Assembly: GCA_963971425.1 (NCBI GenBank)
Contig: OZ020516.1
Location: forward strand, 14,000,593-14,064,592
Direction of reading: 5' to 3'
Length of the DNA stretch: 64,000 bases
DNA from: Bryoerythrophyllum caledonicum
Taxonomy: Eukaryota > Streptophyta > Bryopsida > Pottiales > Pottiaceae
Shown: one piece after another, positions 2,646 through 19,760 of the stretch
Numbering within the stretch: position 1 is the stretch's first letter
Layout of the letters: the number at the start of each line of letters is the position of its first letter
Program-made: the position numbers and the translations under genes
Notes under the pieces: generated by a model
What the model was told of the DNA's origin: nothing
Seen by the model: only the letters and a program-made list of their open reading frames with translations
Databases searched by the model: none

Positions 2646-5600
2646 TTATACGCCGGAATGGGTAAGGTCACGTCTTGAGTATGGTCGGTCGATAACTCCA
2701 GCAGCTTCCCTGTCTTGCGAGAACTTAGGATAAGGAAGTGGCTTTGTGAGGAAGTCCGCTTGTTGCATAGAGGTTGGAATGAAGTTAACCCTAGTATAAC
2801 CCTGATCTAAGGCCTTTCGGATGAAGTGAGCTTGAATGCCGATATGCTTTGTACGTACGTGCAATACAGGATTCTGGACAAGTTTAATACAAGACTGGTT
2901 ATCGCTGAAAATCTGTGTTGCATCAATCATCTGAATGCCGATTTCTTCCAGAAGTCTACGAAAATATATAACATCTTTGGAGGCGTCGGTTAGAACTCGG
3001 TACTCGGCTTCAGTGCTGGATAATGAGACAACCCGTTGTAATTTACTGGACCAAAATACACATGAGTCACCTAGCTTGTGCAGAATTTCGGAGGTGGATC
3101 GCAACGTGTCTAGATCCCTCCCCCAATCCGCATCTGCGAAAGTATGATGTTGCTTAGAAGCGTTTGCGGAGAGTAGGAGTCCGTGATGCATTGTCCCCTT
3201 AAGATAACAAAGGATTTGCTTAGTAGCTTGAAGATGAGCAGAGTCGGGTTGTACCATGTACCGTGCCACACATCCAACTGCAAAGCTAATATCCGGACGT
3301 GTGTTTGTAAGATAGATCAGGCTTCCGACTAGGGACCTATACAATTATGCGTTAACTGCTTCAGTGCCCATTGATTTTTGTAGTTGCATGTGCGGGTCCA
3401 TCGGCAACAAACTGTGGTTGTAGTTTTCCATACCAAACTTTTGCAATAGTCTTTTGATGTACGCCGTTTGGGTTAGGAGGATGCCCTCTCGCAAGCGTCG
3501 GATCTCGGCTCCCAAGTAAATGTGTGCGCCATTCAAGTCTGACATCTCAAATTCTTTCTGTAGCGCTGCTTTGAGAGTCTTTATTCTAGTCTTGTCATCA
3601 CCAGTGTTTTATAAGTCATCTACGTACAGTAAGATGAATACTCGTTTCCCGTGTTTTGTGTAATAGTAAAGGTTTGGGTCAAATTTGCTGCGCGTTAGCC
3701 CCTGTTAAATCAACCACGAATCTATCCTTGCATACCATGCCCACGGAGCCTGTTTCAAACCATATAGTGCTCGTCTTACTCTACATATTTTGGCTGGGTT
3801 ACCTGACTCAGGGAATCCCTCAGGAATTTCCATCAATACATCTTCATCCAAGGTTCTATTTAAAAAGGCAGTCTTGACGTCCATCTCATGGAGATCCCAA
3901 TCGTTTTGTGCAGCTAGCGCAAGTATGATCTTGATAGTTGACCACCTTACAACTGGTGCAAAAATGTCATCATAATCGATCCCCTCCTTCCGCTGGAACC
4001 CTCTTGCAACAACTCGAGCTTTTAGTTTAGTATTTTCACCTGCTTGCTTAACCTTAAATATCCATTTTGCCGTGATTGGCGTGCGTCCATGTGGTCTGTC
4101 TATTATGTCCCAGGTGCAATTACGTAAGATTGAACTAATCTTGCTATCAATAGCTTGGCGCCATCCCGGGTGTTGGAATGCCTCGTTGAAGCATCTAGGT
4201 TCTTCTGAGTTTTCCGAATTTAAGGCCCAGTGATCCTGTAGGCGTTGTGATGGTCGTCTCTCTCGAGTAGGGTACCGGGACCTTTTTGTTGATGTTGTTG
4301 TCCGTATTCGTTGAGCACTTGTTGCAGTACATGGCGGTTGTTTGACGTTTGTTGGTACGGTAGTAGGCCGCCCAACGGCAGCTTCTTGGTCCACACTGGT
4401 ATCCACGGGAATAGGGTTTGTTTCTCCTATTACCAAGTTCGTGTGGCGGCCTGCCGAGTCACTAACGATGAGTTGGGGCGAAAAGCGTGCCGAAAGAGGT
4501 TCTTCAACTTGGCGTGGGCTCCAGGTGGAGTCGCCCTGTGATAGGTAGGATGGTAGATCGTGTGATGTTGGTGCCGAACCGCGCGGAGTTTCTTGCGCTT
4601 GTTCACTCCTTTCCTGATATCTCTCCTCTAAGTTCGGTGCCTTGCCGTGATGTGTCACTAAATCTGTGGTTGATAGTGGGATGCTGCAACTAAAGCTAGG
4701 TGGATAAATTGAGGGTTTTTTTTCAAGTGGTTGAATCCCACTAGGCTCTCATCAAACACCACATCCCTACTAATAATAATTTTGCGCCTGACATGATTAT
4801 AAAGCCTGTACGCTTTTGACTCTTGATTGTATCCAACGAACATGCACGTATGACTTTTTTTGTCTAGTTTTTGTCTCTCACTATCTGGTATATGAACGTG
4901 AGCCATACAACCAAATATTCGTAAATTTTTGAGGTTGAAAGGTGTACCTGAGTAACTGGATTCTGGTGGAATCCCATAATTCGATCGCGTGGGGCTGCGG
5001 TTGATCAAGAAGGTCGCCATTTCCACTGCCTCAGGCCACAAGAAGGTTGGAAGCCGGCTGTCTGCAGCAATACTACGAGCTCGCTCCATAATGGTTATGT
5101 TTCGTCTTTCGGAGACGCCATTTTGCTGTGGAGTTTTCGCTTGAGTTAGCTCACGTTCAATTCCGAGCTGTAAACAAAAGTTCTTGAATTCATCTGATAA
5201 ATACTCCCCGCCCCTGTCACAGCGCAATGCTATTAACCGATTGCCGGTTTCTGCTTCCAGCTTGGCCCTGAAGTGGGAGAAGTATTTGTATGTCTCACTT
5301 TTGTGACGCATAAAATAGGTCCAACTTTTCCTCGAGAAATCGTCAGTGAACACTAGTATGAAGCGCGAGCCTCCTAGAAAAGGTCGCTGGAGAGGTCCTA
5401 TTACATCCGTGTGAACTCTTGTTCCTAGAGTTTTGGCCTGGATCTCTGATTTGTGAGGGAATCTCTCCCTATGATGTTTGCCTGCTAGGAAACATGTACA
5501 TACGCGCGTACTCACATTGATGTGAAGAAGACCTTCAATGTGACCAGATTTTGTGAGGAAACTGAGACCCGAATAGCTCAAGTGGCCCATCCTGCGATGC

Positions 5601-6417
5601 CATAGTTCGGCAGCATCACTGACCTCTACTGATAAAACCTCTTGAGGAGTTTCCTGAAGAAAATACAGACCGTTTGTATGGTCTCGATGTCCCACTGCAG
5701 CTATGTTTTGGTTCTTATAAATCCAACAATGAGTTTTTGTAAACAACACCGTATGACCGGAGTCGGTAATTGATCCGACAGATGCTAGGTTCTTCTTGAA
5801 AGTAGGCACGTAACAAACATTCTCCAACTTTATTTCTCCAGTAGAAGTACGGAGAGTAGATGTTCCAGTACCATGCATAGCGTGGGACTCCCCTCCGCCA
5901 GTTTTAATGTCATTGTGAGAGAAAGCTCGACTAGGCGCATAATCTAGCTTTCTGGCATCTGACGCTACATGAGATGACGCTCCACTATCAACATACCAAG
6001 GATTTGAATTACCATAGTAGTAGTAGGGGTCATAGTAGTACTGACCGTATTGTTCATCTAGATCTGTGTTGAAGACTTCGGCCGAGTATGCATATTCGTT
6101 GGTGTTAGGTGCCGCTTGTGAACTTCGACAGTCTCTCGCAAGATGGCCTGGTTTGCCACATACGTAGCAGATAGGTGGTAGCCTCTGTTGTCCTCCATGC
6201 TGCCTAGGTACGCCAAGTCTCCAAGCAGGGCCTCTGCCGCTTGTGTGGCCACGATTTGGAGGCGGTTGGCGTTATCCCCATGGTGAGCCTGGTGGTCGAT
6301 ACCACCATGGTGGTCCGCTTCCCCATCGTCCGCGACCTCGGCCTCGCTGAGGCTGACTTGAACCATTTTGATTCTTATGAGTTGCTGACAAGGCTTCGTC
6401 TTCGCCGTGAAGAGCAA
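2646..6417 (-). pseudogene. Pol region of C2 (protease, integrase, reverse transcriptase, RNase H)
   Basis: Decayed pol of C2 on the - strand. The GAG_pre-integrase/integrase part lies at about 5878-4658 (LWHRRMGHLSYSGL, TPQQNGVSERRN, LFGCMAHVH-type hinge). Reverse transcriptase starts near 4200 (DHWALNSENSEEPRCF, KARVVARGFQRKEGIDY) and RNase H lies at 3344-2646 (SLVGSLIYLTNTRPDISFAV, FSDNQSCIKLVQNP, KHIGIQAHFI). The region is split by several breaks and is not expected to make a full polyprotein. Confidence 0.9.
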
Positions 6418-6436
6418 CCCAATGTTGGGGTCGATA

Positions 6437-7147
6437 CTACTCTATGAGTATCTTTGCACTCAGTTTGTCAAACGACATGTCCGGATCCAAATGCGAGAGC
6501 GTCTGTACTGTGCTGTCGAATGACCGAGGCAACCCATTGAGAACAATCCGGTTGAGCTGCTGGTCATTCACATCCTCTCCCATGCTTGCGAGTCGGTTCT
6601 TCAACTTGTCAGCTTTACTAAGAAAATCCTCCACCTTGCTTCCTTCTGGCATCTTCAAAGTTTGAAGCTCTGCTGTCAGGGTTAGAATGTGTGACTGGTC
6701 ATTTGACGCAAATCGTTCTTTTAACGTGTTCCAAGCGTCACTGGGATCTAAATGTTTTGCAACAAGGTTGACCAAGCTATCCGAGACTGACATGAGTAAC
6801 ATACGACACGCGACAACCTTTCGCTTCTCAAACAATGCCTCACTGATCTCTTCTCCATTGACAACTAGAGGAAAGGCGGCTGGTGACCTCTTCTCTTCGA
6901 TGTAGTACCACAGGCTCTCCCCTCTAAGAATGGTCCGCAGTTTTAAGCTCCAAACAAAGTAATTTTCTATGCCTATCTGCTTGTCTCCCTCCCTTACTAT
7001 CATATTCTCCGTCATTTTGAATGCACTCTCTATTTGTTTCGGTTGAGAGACCAACCTTGACTCTGCAGAGGGCGACTCTTCTTTCACTGTTTGACTTGAT
7101 GACTCTTTTGGCACTCTCGACAGTTCTACTATCAACTTCGGCGGCAT
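6437..7147 (-). pseudogene. Gag region of C2
   Basis: A 236-residue reading frame with a copia Gag profile: an N-terminal lead, then IGIENYFVWSLKLRTIL, SDAWNTLKERFAS and MPEGSKVEDFLSKADKLKNR, which correspond to the UBN2-type Gag core of plant copia elements. It belongs to the nested fossil C2. The zinc knuckle and protease follow downstream on the - strand in broken form. Confidence 0.85.
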
Positions 7148-7216
7148 TGCCTTTCGATAGGACTTGACCCTCTCTCCTTCTCTAAAGATAATCCTACTTC
7201 AGTCCTAACTAAGCTC

Positions 7217-10200: not shown

Positions 10201-10985
10201 CAATACATATTACACACTCATACCGATTAGAAAACAAAGGACTCCAATTATATCTTGAAAAGCAGAGGACTCCACCGCACGTCCGGACTAAGCTATGATA
10301 GACCGCAACCAGCACTACCCCGAGTTCCAGTAGCCTCCTATCTTCAAACTAGCAGAAACGAGCTGCACTCTACAAAACAAAGAAATCAAGTTCATGGCTA
10401 AACGATTCAGAAAATGATGTCGTAAAAGAAAAAGAAGATCAGTCCATTCAGCCAGGAGACTTCGAAGCTGGAACAGTTATCGAAGATAGGACTTCCGCAG
10501 CTCAACGCCTAAAGCCAAACGCAGGAGATCAGAAGATGAAGAACGCAGGAGTGCATGTGAGCATAAAAACTCCACAGCAAGCGGCCACAGGAGGACATAT
10601 GGGGGAGCAGGAGGAAGATAGCAGGTCTCATATTATTGTGGTTCAGTAAACTGATGATGAGACGTCGTCGTGAAGAATCTGAATCTTCACGTTGTAGTCT
10701 CGGCCGGAGGGTGATTACTTTGGATGAGTTTGTGGCTCTTCCATCGAGACCTTTCACTTGGATGTACCAGGTTCCAGGTGGTGCATCAAATCACATGTCC
10801 TATCATACATGTCATTGTCCTAAAATTGAGATCAAATGCTGTCGCCAAAGCTTACATGCGATCATGAAGTCGATGTTAACTTGGCCGCCTCAAATATGCT
10901 AGACTCATGAAGAGTAACATTACGAGGGAATTACCTACATGGCCCACTGGTGACCACTTGGACTAGCCTGACTCGCTTCGTTTTA
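10201..10985. repeat. Dispersed duplication, copy A (upstream of the HAC fragment)
   Basis: Aligns in the same orientation with 19761-20815. The first part (10201-10630) is loosely similar. The block 10631-10770 is almost identical to 20131-20266, with about four differences in roughly 140 bp. The block 10771-10985 matches 20597-20815 closely. Copy B has about 330 extra bases between the two blocks. Copy A lies upstream of the HAC fragment on the - strand, and copy B lies directly upstream of the IPT9-like start codon. Confidence 0.85.
10651..10770 (+). other. Short conserved open frame inside the duplicated block
   Basis: On the + strand both copies (10651 and about 20154) open with MMRRRREESESSRCSLGRRV followed by ITLDEFVALPSRP. 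Of the three base differences within the shared frame, two are silent. The opposite strand is also open here (GRATNSSKVITLRPRLQRED). I do not recognise either translation. It may be a captured exon or a non-coding block that is simply young. Confidence 0.3.
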
Positions 10986-11001
10986 AGGTGAAGTTCAATT
11001 C

Positions 11002-11029
11002 ATGACGTAAGAACAAAGTCTTACGTCAT
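11002..11029. repeat. Perfect 11-bp hairpin with TGACGT arms
   Basis: ATGACGTAAGA (11002-11012) and TCTTACGTCAT (11019-11029) are exact reverse complements around a 6-base loop. The arms contain TGACGT/ACGTCA, the core of bZIP (TGA-type) sites. Function is not shown. Confidence 0.75.
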
Positions 11030-11101
11030 AGTTGGACTTGCAAGATGCAACTTCTAAGAACAAAGTCTTACGTCATAGTTGGACTTGCAAGATGCAACTT
11101 C
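11008..11101. repeat. 47-bp tandem duplication
   Basis: Two identical 47-bp copies, 11008-11054 and 11055-11101, each starting TAAGAACAAAGTCTTACGTC. It overlaps the right arm of the hairpin at 11002-11029. Confidence 0.95.
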
Positions 11102-12273
11102 TAAGTGCAGTTTAAACATTTTCGTCAGGTTCATAATCACACATGTTGGATTGTGTAAATGTATCATGGCATAATGAATTCGTGGTGTAGTATGAATAAG
11201 GAAAATAATTTCGTATTTCATTGTTGGAAGAGAGATTGCACAACTGTCAATGTGAAAGCTACCAATATGGATATGAATGTAGTCAATTCTGAATTCTCAT
11301 GTTCCAACTCTACTCCCAAGTCCAGTTTCAGTTCTATATAAGTTCAATAACTGAGGCATATTAAGTATAAACGCTGGGGGAGCTTTTGATGATAATATTA
11401 ACTAATTGGAATTTTTCAAAACCTTATAGTCTAAGTGCTATAGTATTTTACACACTAATCCACCTGATCATTTGAAGAACATAAGTATCTCCCTAAGTAT
11501 CCAAAAATATAATTTGGATTTCAGCCAAATATTGAGATCGAAACTTACACCAATTTCATTTAGATGAAATGAAATTTCTTTTGGATGTACTTCCATCAAT
11601 ATAAGAATCCATGTACTACATAACTACTTGATGTCGCACGTGACCAGCTGATAGCAGGTAAAAAGCACAAAGTTTTATGTTAAGCGGCACAAAACACATG
11701 ACCAGCCCGAAGTGCACTTAAACTGCCCGACCTGCAAACTACGATATAAATATCTCCTTCCCTACTGTATTTTTCTAGAAACTGAGTTCGAGGCATACTT
11801 ATCATCCAATGCACCATCATCCGAAGCAGTACAATGACATAGGAACCCATACAGTCCAATGCCTCATATCACCTGCCCATGTTCTACATCATAAGAGAAA
11901 CAAACAGTAGCACTTCATTTTTCCAATCCAGCAGACCAGCCTCTACTACCACCAGTCCTCCACTCATCAAGCGAATCACACACTTACCAACTTCAGAGAC
12001 CTCCAAAACAACTGAGCAATGTGATTCATATGAACGAAGAAGAGCGCATTATAAAACAAGAAATCCATTATTCAATCCAATGTCGTGGTGACGAAATCAG
12101 TCCGCCAGCAACCAATGTATAGTTTCGCCAAATTATACGTTCACCCTACCCTGCATACAAAATTGTTCAGCCTCAGCAACATATACAATATTGCACCAGT
12201 GCTTCGGAGAAGTAGCCCTCCACTTAGAAGCTGGTCTGTTGGTGCACTGGTTCACAAAGTGTGCATGCGACAA
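11102..12273. other. Intergenic DNA, 3' side of the IPT9-like gene
   Basis: AT-rich stretch with only short spurious open frames. The part next to 12274 would hold the 3' untranslated region of the IPT9-like gene. No repeat end, RNA gene or coding homology was recognised. Confidence 0.4.
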
Positions 12274-13012
12274 CTAACTGCAGCAATCGCAGCCTGTCAA
12301 GGCGCCCAAAAAGGCCCAGTCCTTGATGTGATCCCACTTATCCACCGGGTGCCCCTGCGTCCGCTTGATCCACTTCAGGATGCTCGCCGCAGCGTCCGGG
12401 TCTTGGTAGATCTGCAGAGTTGGCCGGTAAGTCTTCATGCGCTTCTGCTCCTTCATGCTGAGCGCCATGAGCTCCTTCCCACTCTCCACTTCGAAGCGCG
12501 ACCCCCCGGGCTCGGCGTACTCGGCCGCCAACACTTTCACCATCTGCTCCACCGGCAGCCCCGCCCGGATCCACCGGAACTTGCGCACGTCGCTCCTGGC
12601 GGACTTGCGCCACCACGCCGTCTGCTTCCGCGCCAGGTCGCGGCAGTTGTGCTGGAACAGCGCCAGGAACTCCAGAAACCTCTTGTGGCTCACCACGCCC
12701 CCGTTCCTGCGCGCGTCCAGCAGCAATCCCATAGACTCCTCGTACCCGATGGCGTCGCACGCCTGCGGGGCCAGGCGGTGCAGCCCCCGGTCGAGCAGGC
12801 GCGACGCCTCCTCCAGCAGCTCGGGGATCTGCACCTCACAGCGCAGGTCCAAGCGCGGGAATAGATCGGCGCGGTGCTGGTACAGGAAGTAGCCCTGGAA
12901 GTCCAAGTCCCAGCGATCCGGGTCCGCGTCGCCCTCGCCCGTCAGATCCTCGCCCGGGAACGGGTGCGTCGTGATGCTCGCCGTGTTGTGCATGTAGGTG
13001 CGCATGTACATG

Positions 13013-13373
13013 TGTTGAACTTCCTTACGCCAGACCATGTAACGATCACAAAACATTTTAAGACACACTGAAGAACATACTCTGTATTCACTCTTCTTTA
13101 ATACACAAGTACTTCTAGAATGCTCTTCTTTATTCATATACTACTCTATCAAACACAAATGGATTAATCCAGAGTTCAGAGCTAAGCATCTAAGGAACTA
13201 CATGGTTCTATCACCTCAAGCTCCCGGAGCACGGCAAAGACCTTACACTCAAAAACTAAACTACAGCAGAAAGCAAACAGACAGATAAAGGGAATTGGAG
13301 TGTCAAACCCTAGCTAACAGAAAACATCCAAATGAAGGATGAAAAGACTGATGAACGTAAAATAAACTCAACA
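13013..13373 (-). repeat. 3' LTR of C3
   Basis: 361 bp, identical by eye to 18283-18643. The left flank is ACATG (13008-13012) followed by the rest of the IPT9-like exon. The purine-rich stretch GAACGAGTGGGAG (- strand, from 13386 down) lies next to it and fits a polypurine tract. Confidence 0.97.
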
Positions 13374-13572
13374 CTCCCACTCGTTCTTCAGTCAAGAGAG
13401 GAGGGAACAAAATGTGAGTAAACTTCAGTAAGCTTGAGTGAACAGACAGAACTGATGTTGAACGTTTCAAAACTCCAACTTAAAGAATCATATGCAAGTA
13501 AACTTCGGTAAGATGGAAATGATAGATCTGATGTAAAACGTTGAGAACTCCCACTTGAAATCTCCCACTCGT

Positions 13573-16500
13573 TTAAAGAAGAGCTGTCATGCCTATCTTT
13601 TCACGAAGAATAAGAAACTGCACCTTTGGAAGCCCTTTGGTGAATAGGTCAGCGAGCTGGAGCTTCGTATTGATATAAACAACATCAATCTCCCCTTGCT
13701 CGTATTTTTCCCTGGAAAAATAATATTTTCGCTCGATGTGCTTTGTCCGTTTATGAAATTCGGGATTCTTCACGAGTCGAATTGCAGATTGGTTGTCGCA
13801 GAACAACACGGTTCTGGTATTCTGTGGAAGACCAATGCTTCGCAATAATCGACGCAACCAGATTGCTTCTTTTGCAGCCTCCGCTAGAGCTACAAACTCC
13901 GCCTCTGTAGTGGAGTCAGCGGTACAACCTTGCTTCTGCGAGATCCATGAGATTGGTCCATTCGCAAGTTTGAAAACAGCTCCTGTACGAGACTTCCTAT
14001 CACTCGCATCATTGCAATAGTCTGCGTCTACATAGCCTGTGAGTTCAAGATCAGATGAGGTTCCATAGAAAGTGATTCCATGAGAGATCGTTCCGCGAAT
14101 ATAGCGCATTATCCTTTTAACCGCTGCCCAGTGTGAAATACGTGGTTTAGATGAGTATTGTGCACATCTTGTCACAGCATAAGAAATATCGTCTCTAGTG
14201 AGCACCATAGCGTACATGAGGCATCCTATCGCCTGTTGATAAGGCCCTTCAAAGGAATGGTCTTCATCGCTGGCAACTTCATATAGAGTTGTGTGCGAGT
14301 CTGCTGGCGTTGATACAGGACTGCAGTCGAACATATCAAAACGATGAAGGACATCGGTAAGGTAACGGGTTTGGTGCAACGTAATGGCATACGTCTCGGG
14401 ATGTTGATAGACCTGGAATCCAACATAGTAATCCATAATCCCTTTCACAATCTTGAAAACAGTCTCTAAATGCTTGATCACAGCACTGAGTCTATTAAAA
14501 TCAGTGGAAGCGGCGATCCCATCATCAATGAAAATGCCCAGGATAAGGGTCATGTTGACGTCATGATATACGCATGGATCCGCTTCACTGGGGATAAGGT
14601 TGAAGCTTTTAAGAAAAGAATCAAACTTCATATTCCACTGTCTGGCGCTTTGTTTAAGGCCATACAGGCTTTTCCGCAATTTACACACTAGTTTCTCGCA
14701 ACCTGTTGCAATGAAACCTTCAGGTTGACACATATAAATGTCCTCATGGAGATCACCATTTAAAAATGCCGTGCCAATATCAAATTGTAGAAGTTTCATC
14801 TTGTGTGCTGCAGCAATAGCAAAGATCACACGAATAGATGAATACTTCACAACTGGAGAGAATGTCTCAGTATAGTCAATCCCAGCTTTTTGAGAATAGC
14901 CCTTGGCAACAACTCGAGCTTTAAATCGATCAATGTCACCAGAGGATTTGTACTTGACTTTAAACACCCACTTGCACTGTATTTTCTTCCGTCCAACAGG
15001 CAAAGATACAAGATCCCAGGTGCGATTATCTATTAGGGAGTCAAATTCTTTCTTCATGGCATCTTGCCAATCTGTGGAATGATCAGAAAGAATAGCTTCC
15101 TTATAGGTTTGTGGCTCCATGCACACTTCACCAGCTGTTACAAGTAAGGCTTGAGAGGTCATTTCAGGAAGAGAATTGGAAGAAACCTCAGGCTCATCAG
15201 AGTTTGCATAAAGATCTGCAAGACTCCTAAAACGTGGTTGAAGGGGTTCACTCTGAGAGGTTTCGTCAATATCAGTTGTAGATTCAGTAGCAGAAGGTGA
15301 TACATGTTCTCCCACTACAACCGGAGTAGGATTGAGGTCGGATGAAAGGCTCAAGGATTCGAGTTGATCAGAATCAGAAAGAAAATCTGGAGGAGGTATT
15401 GTAGGAACAGTTCTGGTTGATAAAGTAGGAGGATCAATCATAAGGTACTGAGAGATACGTTGATGGTCGTCAGGTTTAAACTTCCCATGGTGTTCATCAA
15501 AGAGTACATCAGAGCTCTCTATGATTTTATTCGCACCATAGTCCCAAAATCGCCACCCTTTGCTTGTATTGCTGTACCCTACAAACCGAACCTGTTTTCC
15601 CCGGGCATTGAACTTTTGCCTAAATTTCTTATCAATAAGAACGTAAGCAAGAGATCCAAAGATATGGTAATTTGCAACAGATGGTTTGTTGCCATACCAA
15701 AGCTCAAATGGGGTTTTGTTCCCTGTCTGAGTATTGATGGTGCGATTCAGTAAATAAACTGCAGTACTCACTGCTTCCGCCCAAAGATAAACGGGTAGGT
15801 TCATCGCTGTAAGCATACTCCTTGCAGATTCGCAAATGGTCCTGTTATCTCGTTCAATGTATCCATTTTGCTGTGGGGTATAGGGAGTACTAGTTTCTCT
15901 CTTGATACCTTCATCATCCAGAAAATCATCGAAAGCTTTGTTGCAAAACTCAGTCCCTCGATCTGACCGAAATCTACGAACTGTGTTACCAGTATCATGG
16001 TGAGCAGTGCGAACAATCTTTTTAAAGAAGAGAAGCGCTTCATTTTTTGCCTTGGCAAAATGTATAAAACGAAAAGAAGTTGCGTCATCCTTGATCAATA
16101 TGTAGTAAACAGAATCACCAAGGGATTTTTTTGAAAATCTCCCGCAAACGTCAGAATGTAGAAATTCGCCTGGGATTAGTGATCTCTCTTTGTTCTGATC
16201 ATGACGATAAGTAGCTTTCGTCTGCTTCGCCAAGGAACACCCTTCACATAGGGATGAGGAACTCTCAAGATCAATGAGAGGAAAATCCAAAAGGGATTCA
16301 TGACGAGACATCTGCTTCATGGTATCAAGGCTAATATGGCCCATGCGTTGATGCCAAACATCCGTCTCAGTCTTTTGTGAAGCGGAAATATCAGATACTG
16401 TAGAAGTAATGACATTGGCTTCAGATCTAGAGGAATCAACTTCAAAAGATAGGAGGAATAATTTTCCTTGTCTGGTCCCTTGTAGAACCACATGACCTTT

Positions 16501-17907
16501 TCCTTCATGTAGACGAAACTCACAGGAAGTACCATGAGAGGTAAACGAGAGACCCTTCTCGATAGCTAGTCCAATGGAAAAAAGATTTCGCTTAAGTAAT
16601 GGTACATACAGTACATTCTCAAGAGATCCTCGTCTATGGTCACCGTTGATGTGTCTTGTAATTCGAATTGTACCGGTGCCAAGAACAGGCAGCTTTCTGT
16701 CGTCAGCTACAGATACGTACCATGATCCTTCGACGACCGGAGTAAATGTATCAAACCAAGAGCGTCGATCTGTCATGTGCTCCGTAGCGCCCGTATCTCC
16801 GAACCAAAGATCGGAGTCAGATGTGACAGATAGTGCTGCTGACATACTGGATATAACCGTGAATGCGTAGTCACCTCCAGATGATGCTTCACTTCTTGAA
16901 TCCTCATCAAAACTGTGCTCCTCATCCGAATAAACAGTATTAACGGCGCATGCGTTGCTCTGATGCAAAGGTCTTTTTCCTTTGTCGTGATACTTATCAC
17001 GAGAGCCATGCCAAGACTGAGATGTACTATGACGCTCATGACGCGAATCATGGGGTCGAGAATGATGTGTACCTGAGCTCCCTCGATGATCACGTTTGTC
17101 GCGATAATCACGGTTGTCACGATGATCGTGGTTATCACGCTTAGGCAGCATACAATCTCTGGCGTAATGGTCTGCACCACCACAATTGAAACAGACAGAG
17201 CGCGATTGAAGTTCTCGAAGATACGTTGCATCTTGCTCCCGTCTGATTAATTTAGCCATCTTCTTCGTGTTTGGTTGGGCACGGGTAAAATATGCTGTAT
17301 CTGTCGAGTTTTCCTTGTCTTGTTGTTTTAATATGTGTTCCTGCTGTAACAAACGGGTGGTAATCGCAGAAATGGTTTGACTCTCACTAGGTACATTTGC
17401 CCAGGCAGCAACGGTGCTGTTGTAACTGGGAGGTAAACTCATCAAGATCTTTGTAATCACCTGCTTATCGCTGAGTGGTTCACCTAAATCTTTCAAGATG
17501 CTTGCCTTATGCTCAATATTGTTAATATGAGCTTTTATGCTATCACTCTTGGTCATCTTATAGTCGTAAAAATCAGCATGAACCATATAGACGTTCTCTG
17601 CGGATTTTAGCTGATGAATTGACCTAAGTTTGGTCCACATTTCAGCAGCTGTGGTACAAGAGATCAGGTCCTCCATCACTGTGGATGTCACTGCCTGCAT
17701 TATAAGCATCCTAGCGTGATCATTCTTCTCCGTCCAAGAATTAATCGCCTCAAGGGTAGAAGTACTAGCAGGTTTTTGTTCAATGCCATTGACAATTCCG
17801 GAAACCTTCTTGTAGGCAAACAATATGTCCATCGAGCTTTTCCATACATTGAATTTCGACCCGTCAAACACCTTGATGCCGGCCATCTCCGATCGTTCCA
17901 TGATCAC
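13573..17907 (-). CDS. Gag-Pol polyprotein of C3
   Basis: One uninterrupted frame of 1,444 codons in a copia element. Gag spans about residues 1-260 (VFDGSKFNVWKSSMDILFAY, CCHC zinc knuckle CFNCGGADHYARDC at about 239-252), followed by an Asp/Arg/His-rich linker. The protease motif WFGDTGATEH lies near 371. Integrase follows with HQRMGH and CEGC zinc ligands and the core RSDRGTEFCNKAF and TPQQNGYIERDNRT. Reverse transcriptase has LQFDIGTAFLNGDLHEDIYM and the catalytic FIDDGIA, and RNase H has TGYVDADYCND, STTEAEFVAL and LFCDNQSAI. Length and order are those of a complete copia polyprotein. The first or second Met (codon 1 or 3) could be the start. Confidence 0.95.
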   Translation of the reverse strand: MIMERSEMAGIKVFDGSKFNVWKSSMDILFAYKKVSGIVNGIEQKPASTSTLEAINSWTEKNDHARMLIMQAVTSTVMEDLISCTTAAEMWTKLRSIHQLKSAENVYMVHADFYDYKMTKSDSIKAHINNIEHKASILKDLGEPLSDKQVITKILMSLPPSYNSTVAAWANVPSESQTISAITTRLLQQEHILKQQDKENSTDTAYFTRAQPNTKKMAKLIRREQDATYLRELQSRSVCFNCGGADHYARDCMLPKRDNHDHRDNRDYRDKRDHRGSSGTHHSRPHDSRHERHSTSQSWHGSRDKYHDKGKRPLHQSNACAVNTVYSDEEHSFDEDSRSEASSGGDYAFTVISSMSAALSVTSDSDLWFGDTGATEHMTDRRSWFDTFTPVVEGSWYVSVADDRKLPVLGTGTIRITRHINGDHRRGSLENVLYVPLLKRNLFSIGLAIEKGLSFTSHGTSCEFRLHEGKGHVVLQGTRQGKLFLLSFEVDSSRSEANVITSTVSDISASQKTETDVWHQRMGHISLDTMKQMSRHESLLDFPLIDLESSSSLCEGCSLAKQTKATYRHDQNKERSLIPGEFLHSDVCGRFSKKSLGDSVYYILIKDDATSFRFIHFAKAKNEALLFFKKIVRTAHHDTGNTVRRFRSDRGTEFCNKAFDDFLDDEGIKRETSTPYTPQQNGYIERDNRTICESARSMLTAMNLPVYLWAEAVSTAVYLLNRTINTQTGNKTPFELWYGNKPSVANYHIFGSLAYVLIDKKFRQKFNARGKQVRFVGYSNTSKGWRFWDYGANKIIESSDVLFDEHHGKFKPDDHQRISQYLMIDPPTLSTRTVPTIPPPDFLSDSDQLESLSLSSDLNPTPVVVGEHVSPSATESTTDIDETSQSEPLQPRFRSLADLYANSDEPEVSSNSLPEMTSQALLVTAGEVCMEPQTYKEAILSDHSTDWQDAMKKEFDSLIDNRTWDLVSLPVGRKKIQCKWVFKVKYKSSGDIDRFKARVVAKGYSQKAGIDYTETFSPVVKYSSIRVIFAIAAAHKMKLLQFDIGTAFLNGDLHEDIYMCQPEGFIATGCEKLVCKLRKSLYGLKQSARQWNMKFDSFLKSFNLIPSEADPCVYHDVNMTLILGIFIDDGIAASTDFNRLSAVIKHLETVFKIVKGIMDYYVGFQVYQHPETYAITLHQTRYLTDVLHRFDMFDCSPVSTPADSHTTLYEVASDEDHSFEGPYQQAIGCLMYAMVLTRDDISYAVTRCAQYSSKPRISHWAAVKRIMRYIRGTISHGITFYGTSSDLELTGYVDADYCNDASDRKSRTGAVFKLANGPISWISQKQGCTADSTTEAEFVALAEAAKEAIWLRRLLRSIGLPQNTRTVLFCDNQSAIRLVKNPEFHKRTKHIERKYYFSREKYEQGEIDVVYINTKLQLADLFTKGLPKVQFLILREKIGMTALL

Positions 17908-18270
17908 ATTTAGGAAGGGAAATCACTCTAGGGTTTCAATGAAAACTATAGGATAACGGCTACCACAGTTCCGCTTCCGAGGGATCACGGTAACAAACTA
18001 CCACGCTTCCGCTTATGATAGATCAAAAAATATGGACCGAAATAGAGGAAGAGGTAGAAAAAGAATTTAAGAATCCATGTAAGAAAAGATACTTAACACA
18101 GAACATACCTCATAGTCGCAAGAACTGCGCCATGAAGTAAAAGGCTTAGATAATATGCTCCATCAATTGAAAACGCAGCGCTCCAGGGGTGGTTTCTCCA
18201 TTTACAATGGTTTTACAAAAAAAAACCCACCGAAAATAACTTGAAATGGCATGAGGAACTAGAGAAAGCT

Positions 18271-18282
18271 CGGCCCATAACC
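18271..18282 (-). other. Primer-binding site of C3 (internal, half-tRNA type)
   Basis: On the - strand, directly after the 5' LTR, the bases read GGTTATGGGCCG. Eleven of these are complementary to the anticodon arm of initiator methionine tRNA (GGGCCCATAACC) and not to its 3' end. This is the primer arrangement known from Drosophila copia and yeast Ty5, where a cleaved tRNA half primes. It differs from C2 in the same window. Confidence 0.85.
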
Positions 18283-18643
18283 TGTTGAACTTCCTTACGC
18301 CAGACCATGTAACGATCACAAAACATTTTAAGACACACTGAAGAACATACTCTGTATTCACTCTTCTTTAATACACAAGTACTTCTAGAATGCTCTTCTT
18401 TATTCATATACTACTCTATCAAACACAAATGGATTAATCCAGAGTTCAGAGCTAAGCATCTAAGGAACTACATGGTTCTATCACCTCAAGCTCCCGGAGC
18501 ACGGCAAAGACCTTACACTCAAAAACTAAACTACAGCAGAAAGCAAACAGACAGATAAAGGGAATTGGAGTGTCAAACCCTAGCTAACAGAAAACATCCA
18601 AATGAAGGATGAAAAGACTGATGAACGTAAAATAAACTCAACA
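18283..18643 (-). repeat. 5' LTR of C3
   Basis: 361 bp, identical by eye to 13013-13373. The right flank is the target duplication ACATG (18644-18648), directly followed by coding sequence of the IPT9-like gene. In this orientation the LTR promoter would read through the element. Confidence 0.97.
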
Positions 18644-19289
18644 ACATGCCCGTGCCGCCGATCACAATGGGCACGCGCCCGCGCGCCAGGATGTCCTCTG
18701 TCGCGGCTCTGGCGTCTACCACGAAGCGGGCGTAGGTATACTCGACTGTGGGCGGCACCATGTCCATGAGGTGGTGCGGGACGCCCTGGCGCTCCTCCAT
18801 GGTGGCCTTGGCCGCGCCGATGTCTAGGCCCTGGTAGACCTGCACCGAGTCGGCGTTGATGATCTCCCCGCCCAGCTCCTTCGCCAGCTCAATCGAAAGC
18901 CGCGTCTTCCCAACTCTGCACAATCGCCACACAGCATGCTTCAGTTTCAGAGCCGATTGCGATTCACATACTTATGGTGAGTATTACCGGGACTCGATTC
19001 AACGTCAGGGTGTTTGCACTACTCCGTCTTATGTCAGTCAAGCATCAAGATAGAGAAAGCGATGATATCACCCAACTGCAAATGGATCCGATATGCTTTC
19101 CAACTCTGTTCACTTTGAACAGCGTGTAAACCTATCTCAAGCTCATTATACGCTTAAACAGAGTAGTGAACCAGTGACCACACTGTATGTGGTGAATGTA
19201 CTCGCAAAAGAATTCTCATCTAAAATAGCATGGGACTCTAACAGGGTCCTACTCGTGTACATTACAACTCGACTTTGCGTAATTCAAAA

Positions 19290-19420
19290 AAGCAGCAGAT
19301 GAAAGAGATGCACTTACGCAGAAAGCAGCAGATGGAAGAGATGAACTTACGCAAAAACCAGCAGATGGAAGAGGTACACTTACGTTAAAACCAGCAGATG
19401 GAAGAGGTGCACTTACGCAG
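19290..19420 (-). repeat. Four tandem copies of the exon-1 splice-donor region
   Basis: About 33-bp units, four in a row, each with GCAGATGRAAGAGRT on the + strand followed by CTTACG. On the - strand each unit carries a (G/A)CGTAAGT, so intron 1 of the IPT9-like gene starts with the real donor at 19416 and then three further donor-like sites. The copies differ from each other at a few positions. Confidence 0.85.
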
Positions 19421-19760
19421 TGGGGCCTGCGATTAAAATCACTCGCGGCTTTGTCGCCGCACGAGCGACCTTCTCAGGAGGAGGAGGAACTGTAGACAGG
19501 CCGTCGAGCAGAAGTCCCGCGGAGCGTGGCGCGATGGCGCAGACCGGATACCGCTCCTTGCCGCGGTTGGCTACCTCGCTACCTTGCAGAGGCTCCAGCG
19601 ACGAGTTCACCATCCGGAGACAGCCTGCTTTTTTGGTGAAAGGTGGCTTGGGGTGCACTGACCCAAGTTTCCATGATGATCCACCGAAGGTGGACTTGCA
19701 GCTGAGAGGGGGCACACCGGTGATGAGAGTGAAGGAAGTCGCCATATCTGCAGCTGCAGT

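Follow-up and report, generated by a model that had tools for sequence, protein, structure and literature searches.

A very recent Ty1/copia-type insertion splits one copy of an IPT-like gene family lacking the tRNA-binding insertion domain in the moss Bryoerythrophyllum caledonicum

We analysed a stretch of 64,000 nucleotides from the moss Bryoerythrophyllum caledonicum (GenBank assembly GCA_963971425.1, contig OZ020516.1, positions 14,000,593 to 14,064,592 of the forward strand), referred to below as the window, in which a copia-type long terminal repeat (LTR) element lies inside a gene resembling isopentenyltransferases (IPTs). The element is 5,631 bp long (13013-18643, minus strand) and has the same orientation as the gene, which consists of two coding exons (Table 1). 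When one copy of the target site duplication ACATG is counted, the host frame runs free of stops through GGTGMYMRTYM, from the start codon to the stop codon and with one intron, and the joined protein of 444 amino acids (aa) matches the Pfam family IPPT (E 6.6e-36). In all three paralogs which span the site, both flanks of the element match abutting bases: C3:15356106/15356107, C3:11856747/11856745 (with one unaligned base between) and C3:14441148/14441147. A fourth close copy, C3:14437792-14438518, ends short of the insertion site. The locus thus holds a very recent Ty1/copia-type insertion into coding exon 2 of a member of an IPT-like family, where it interrupts the GGTGMY motif.

Table 1 Features of the split gene and of the inserted element; positions are those of the window.
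Feature	Position	Strand	Source
Exon 1 of the IPT-like gene, start codon at 19745	19417..19745	-	
Single intron, 501 bp, GTAAGT..GCAG, interrupting the P-loop codons GPTA|VGKT	18916..19416	-	
Coding exon 2, 5' part, ending in the GGTGM motif at the insertion	18649..18915	-	
Coding exon 2, 3' part and stop codon (stop at 12274)	12274..13012	-	
Shortened frame: exon 2 reads on into the LTR, adding 23 foreign residues before the stop	18573..18915	-	
Open frame beginning within the LTR, where it has an ATG, and reaching through the enzyme's C-terminal half	12274..13140	-	
Target site duplication ACATG, low-coordinate copy	13008..13012	.	
Target site duplication ACATG, high-coordinate copy	18644..18648	.	
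LTR, 3' in element sense	13013..13373	-	LTR comparison and repeat search
LTR, 5' in element sense, identical to the 3' LTR	18283..18643	-	LTR comparison and repeat search
Single open polyprotein frame, 1449 aa from stop to stop	13573..17922	-	
Primer binding site, directly after the 5' LTR	18268..18282	-	Alignment to tRNA-Met

The two LTRs of the element, each 361 bp long, were identical at 361 of 361 positions in a pairwise comparison; they begin with TGTTG and end with CAACA, and the identity of the two regions stops at the LTR borders. The pair was also recovered by a separate repeat search, which assigned the first 300 bases to a single family. The sequence of the empty site, CATGTACATG, is a palindrome of 10 bases, and a weak preference for palindromes has been described for plant LTR elements (PMC6911290). 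We take the polyprotein motifs to be CCHC, protease, integrase, reverse transcriptase (RT) and RNase H, which is the copia order, with the integrase motif HHCC at residue 524 preceding the RT motif FIDDG at residue 1131. Paired TG..CA LTRs with a target duplication, together with an integrase lying before the RT, place the element in Ty1/copia. An earlier note on this DNA, made without database searches, had described identical 361-bp LTRs, an exact ACATG duplication, the same element borders, a very young copia-type element and a site which was coding when the element arrived, and all of these held in our analysis.

The first 11 bases of the primer binding site can pair with the anticodon arm of the initiator-type methionine transfer RNA (tRNA-Met) of this genome, and the primer of the element is predicted to be a half-tRNA-Met. 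The initiator anticodon arm was found at 8 sites in the genome, of which 6 were taken as loci; ARAGORN identified tRNA-Met in 4 of these 6 and made no call in the other 2. When the exact complement of the whole primer site was used as the pattern there was no match, and the plant-type initiator anticodon arm did match. Searches of the window with Rfam (gathering scores) and ARAGORN gave no matches. According to PMC6317226, half-tRNA-Met primers occur in the Osser and Bryco lineages, and the element resembles Bryco/Osser Ty1/copia elements as described there in its 5-bp target duplication, TG..CA LTRs, copia domain order and half-tRNA-Met site abutting the LTR. However, this primer type is also reported there for part of Gymco-II, and the likeness is one of features. 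A second copia-type element lies at 2646-7198 of the window on the minus strand; its polyprotein is spread over several frames and it looks older.

We searched the whole genome (437 Mb in 894 contigs) for relatives of the split gene, using a protein search whose first pass scored 20 candidates, so that the copy counts are lower bounds. The IPT-like genes form a cluster on chromosome C3 of at least five copies: two open, two damaged and the split one. The open paralogs are found at C3:15.355 Mb and C3:11.856 Mb, with 94% and 90% protein identity over exon 2, respectively, and the damaged ones at C3:14.438 Mb and C3:14.441 Mb. Further fragments lie at C3:11.860 Mb and C11:2.208 Mb. DNA searches with either flank returned the same main loci as the protein search. 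The genome also contains two multi-exon class I IPT genes, at C3:37.92 Mb (10 exon pieces mapped) and C8:12.40 Mb (9 pieces), both of which retain the tRNA-gripping domain. The idea that the split gene is the sole IPT copy was rejected because of these paralogs, and the search for a second intact copy, proposed in the earlier note, was answered by the two open relatives and the two multi-exon genes.

Below, W denotes the joined window gene, L028 and L029 the open copies and L030b a damaged copy. The open frames of L028 and L029 encode 438 aa and 443 aa in the two open copies, their splice sites are identical to those of W, and the linker which replaces the missing domain described below is nearly identical in all three. 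The first 50 residues of the exon 1 product contain no Asp or Glu and 13 Ser/Thr, a composition which may indicate a plastid transit peptide. The intron of the split gene contains four 33-bp tandem units at 19287-19418, each carrying GTAAGT, which resembles a splice donor, on the strand of the gene; the intron is 501 bp long compared with 407-416 bp in the related copies.

Silent change was over-represented in each of the six comparisons tested. L028 and L029 differed by a silent divergence (dS) of 0.212 and a replacement divergence (dN) of 0.075 (Fisher p 2e-8), and W and L028 by dS 0.131 and dN 0.055 (p 1e-4); exon 2 of the latter pair alone gave p 0.0095, the weakest of the six tests. Across six pairs, including the damaged L030b, dN/dS was 0.41-0.65 in exon 1, 0.08-0.32 in exon 2 before the insertion site and 0.35-0.55 after it. 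These values indicate purifying selection on the open copies. In its 5' half the window gene is most similar to the damaged copy at 14.441 Mb, in its 3' half to the copy at 15.355 Mb; such mosaic relatedness among the C3 copies (11.856, 14.013, 14.44 and 15.355 Mb) suggests gene conversion. In a tree built on 235 gap-free columns the C3 cluster formed one clade (support 100) on a long branch, and its nearest multi-exon relative was placed with a support of only 52, so that the parent gene was not singled out.

The cluster genes possess the IPPT core with its P-loop, catalytic Asp and the residues for dimethylallyl diphosphate (DMAPP), but they lack approximately 50-75 residues which form the insertion domain in tRNA-IPTs. 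Matches of the cluster copies to Pfam IPPT came only in two pieces (1-78 and 150-242), whereas the multi-exon genes matched in one stretch (1-243 and 1-242), and the same gap was seen in PDB alignments of the cluster protein. The spacing from GGxx to the catalytic-domain Arg was 56 residues in all four cluster copies measured (W, L028, L029 and L030b, the last with Ser in place of the Arg), compared with 53 in hop adenylate IPT, 107 in E. coli MiaA and 121 and 133 in the multi-exon genes, the last two values being obtained through joins made by eye. The equivalents of E. coli T19, K23, T24, D42, Y47, H67 and R217 are kept in W, L028 and L029, and R217 is replaced by Ser in L030b. The roles of MiaA residues, including the tRNA-binding R167 and R170, are given in PMC8234997, and in our alignment the positions of these two arginines fall within the missing stretch. 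The cluster genes resemble class I tRNA-IPTs (AtIPT9, PpIPT1, MiaA) in the P-loop, catalytic Asp, DMAPP-binding residues, GGTG and the C-terminal AIGY and R..A.KQ..W regions, but differ from them in having no insertion domain with RxxRALE-type arginines, none of the introns of their multi-exon relatives and one other intron. With hop adenylate IPT (PDB 3a8t) they share the short spacing, which leaves no room for the insertion domain. The possibility that a hidden intron carries the missing domain was rejected, as in L028, L029 and the joined window gene the frame of exon 2 passes the junction unbroken. Loss of the domain by simple exon skipping was also rejected, since a comparison by eye placed this junction in the interior of the matching exons of the multi-exon genes.

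We compared the intron positions of the cluster genes with those of the multi-exon genes, in which GT..AG edges can be read by eye at most exon joins. The exon pieces imply 9 introns at C3:37.92 Mb and 8 at C8:12.40 Mb; one in each gene lies inside the missing domain and is hence uninformative. L028, L029 and the joined window gene have none of the remaining introns, so that the loss of parental introns which marks a retrogene was found in the parts kept by the cluster genes. The cluster's own P-loop intron is absent from both multi-exon genes, whose P-loop exon is uninterrupted. The family thus probably arose by retroposition of a class I IPT mRNA, and the insertion domain would then have been lost before the copies multiplied on C3. 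In the multi-exon gene at C8:12.40 Mb, GGTC replaces GGTG and Asp replaces the second tRNA-contact Arg, and this gene is perhaps changed in function too.

Zero differences in 361 sites correspond to an LTR divergence below approximately 0.8% (rule of three). The window gene differs from its nearest partner by a silent distance of 0.064 (exon 1) and 0.070-0.078 (exon 2). The LTR distance of zero is far lower, and the insertion is therefore much younger than the gene duplications. A sibling of the element lies at C6:2593492-2599105. The two are 99.3% identical over their length as elements (21 mismatches and 4 gap openings); the sibling has LTRs which differ at 1 of 361 sites and is flanked by its own target duplication, GCGTC. 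Its polyprotein lies in two open stretches (region C6:2592500-2600100). A relative on C7 has LTRs of 348 bp which are 96.8% alike and a duplication GAATG read by eye, and more distant relatives are also present in the genome. With at least 2 full-length close copies, the element family has recently been active and seems to be low-copy.

The sibling on C6 interrupts a 358-aa frame (as reconstructed at the empty site) which matches aromatic amino acid lyases (E 2.1e-55), and an uninterrupted copy of this lyase gene, 99% identical, lies approximately 54 kb away. Among the 48 lyase matches listed, 27 cover at least 350 of the 358 residues, including this neighbouring copy. Both of the close full-length copies found of the element therefore lie in coding exons of multicopy genes. 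A solo LTR with 92% identity at C6:22.836 Mb does not; it lies approximately 120 bp past the end of an open frame and outside that frame. Two copies are too few to prove a preference for exons, and they are a small sign only of how exon insertions can survive where paralogs cover the loss. Eleven long phenylalanine ammonia-lyase-type copies among the matches listed lie within 0.66 Mb at C14:16.07-16.74 Mb, each 90-91% identical to the query.

Taken as a whole, we consider it highly probable that a young copia element split one member of a retrocopy-like IPT family without the insertion domain, of which open copies remain. The split copy would be null, leaving a truncated protein of approximately 223 residues and a separate C-terminal frame which the LTR might drive, and its loss would be buffered by the paralogs. 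It should be noted that the insertion itself is an ordinary, well-preserved young copia event, and that the point of interest is the gene which was hit.

Published work on mosses gives this family a possible context. The LFY DNA-binding region of the genome agrees with a moss host: compared by eye with PDB 4bhk (Physcomitrella) it differs at 5 of 105 residues, and it scores 239 bits against this entry and 167 bits against 2vy1 (Arabidopsis); in mosses, two diagnostic positions of the region carry Asp and Cys. The presence of several class I IPTs is also consistent with a moss, since in mosses these are multiple, compared with a single copy in most other plants (PMC6071968). Physcomitrella is described in PMC4036517 as being without an angiosperm-type adenylate IPT; in the same paper the chloroplast enzyme IPT1 does nearly all of the tRNA prenylation, and plants without IPT1 lost almost all tRNA-bound cytokinin and retained free isopentenyladenine (iP) and trans-zeatin (tZ). 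Lindner et al., 2014 considered it most probable that at least one other moss IPT had lost tRNA binding and become adenylate-IPT-like (PMC4036517), and a 2023 review cites this work as evidence for a tRNA-independent route in mosses (PMC10338860). The extra class I IPTs of Physcomitrella and Sphagnum (PMC4036517, PMC6071968) resemble the genes found here in being multiple, and some of them are proposed to have lost tRNA binding; however, the likeness is to their published description and not to their sequence. PpIPT3 and PpIPT5 are listed in PMC4036517 as confirmed tRNA-IPTs, and therefore not every extra moss copy has changed. The C3 cluster agrees in its architecture with the 2014 proposal of a loss of tRNA binding in some class I IPTs of mosses. 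A search of the openly licensed literature for moss, isopentenyltransferase and retrogene together found no paper, which does not imply absence from print.

The surviving members might transfer the isopentenyl group without tRNA, onto a free nucleotide, although we regard this as somewhat doubtful. Still more tentatively, the C3 cluster could be a moss-born family of tRNA-independent IPTs, in which a class I mRNA was retroposed, lost the insertion domain, gained an intron and a first exon resembling a transit peptide and was multiplied; it would then have reached an adenylate-IPT layout in parallel to flowering plants and would supply the unexplained moss cytokinin route, and the copia insertion would be a natural knockout of one member. 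A family under purifying selection which physically lacks the tRNA-gripping domain, in a moss, is a concrete and assayable candidate for such a route. Several observations weigh against this proposal or limit the main explanation. The tRNA-contact residue K56 is kept and K280 is replaced by Arg, and in W, L028, L029 and L030b the catalytic Asp is followed by Ser, as in tRNA-IPTs, whereas in adenylate IPTs this position holds Lys63 in hop and Arg in bacteria (PMC8234997). The sequence is also nearer to tRNA-IPTs than to adenylate IPT, with 3a8t ranking last of the 6 PDB matches. The proposed retroposition is drawn from the intron pattern, for which the exon joins of the multi-exon genes were made by eye. 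The six Fisher tests used rounded counts (p from 0.0095 to 2e-8), and gene conversion among the copies disturbs rate estimates. A three-way count with L029 over exon 2 assigned approximately 13 replacement and 5 silent changes to the window gene and approximately 9 and 11 to L028, so that the window copy may have been under weaker constraint. The cluster could equally consist of pseudoenzymes.

The last of these points leads to an alternative which we consider possible but unlikely, namely that the whole C3 cluster is decaying, being made up of domain-deleted pseudoenzymes, and that the insertion hit a gene which no longer mattered. Damage in 2 of the 5 copies, the shared domain loss, the long branch of the cluster and the perhaps weaker constraint on the window copy would agree with this. 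However, the frames of L028, L029 and the joined W are open, silent change was in excess in every comparison tested, and the splice sites and the linker have been conserved in W, L028 and L029. The earlier note had taken the gene for an IPT9-like one whose interruption may remove a copy of an important tRNA-modifying enzyme. Its assignment to the IPT family stood, but the gene is not a canonical IPT9, and that a true IPT9 was knocked out, with an important part of tRNA modification and cis-zeatin supply lost, we regard as very improbable. The gene does belong to Pfam IPPT with the catalytic residues kept, and with 145 bits it scored narrowly below the cut-off of 148.65 of the NCBIfam MiaA model, which was built for bacteria. 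Nevertheless, the gene has neither the insertion domain nor the two arginines which in E. coli bind tRNA, the genome holds two close open paralogs besides two multi-exon class I genes, and in Physcomitrella chloroplast IPT1 carries nearly all tRNA prenylation (PMC4036517). Loss of tRNA modification from the insertion thus appears unlikely.

We also weighed whether the allele stays active, with the element spliced out, or yields a new short protein from a C-terminal half driven by the LTR. An open frame with an ATG does lead from the LTR into this half, and element and gene have the same orientation, but the C-terminal part alone has neither the P-loop nor the catalytic Asp and the open stretch of approximately 43 codons in the LTR can be due to chance, making this explanation improbable. 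An assembly artefact is scarcely credible: the locus is known from a single assembly, but the LTR ends are textbook ones, the 5-bp duplication is exact, the frame is intact across the site and a sibling element with its own duplication is found elsewhere. We therefore retain the young insertion into one of several domain-less copies as the preferred explanation of the locus.

Two further features were seen in the window beyond the stop codon of the split gene. Stretches within 10204-11701 are 71-93% alike to the upstream and flanking regions of IPT-like copies and may be what is left of another duplicate next to the split gene, and an open frame at 9361-10122 matches the TAZ zinc finger (E 2.1e-11).

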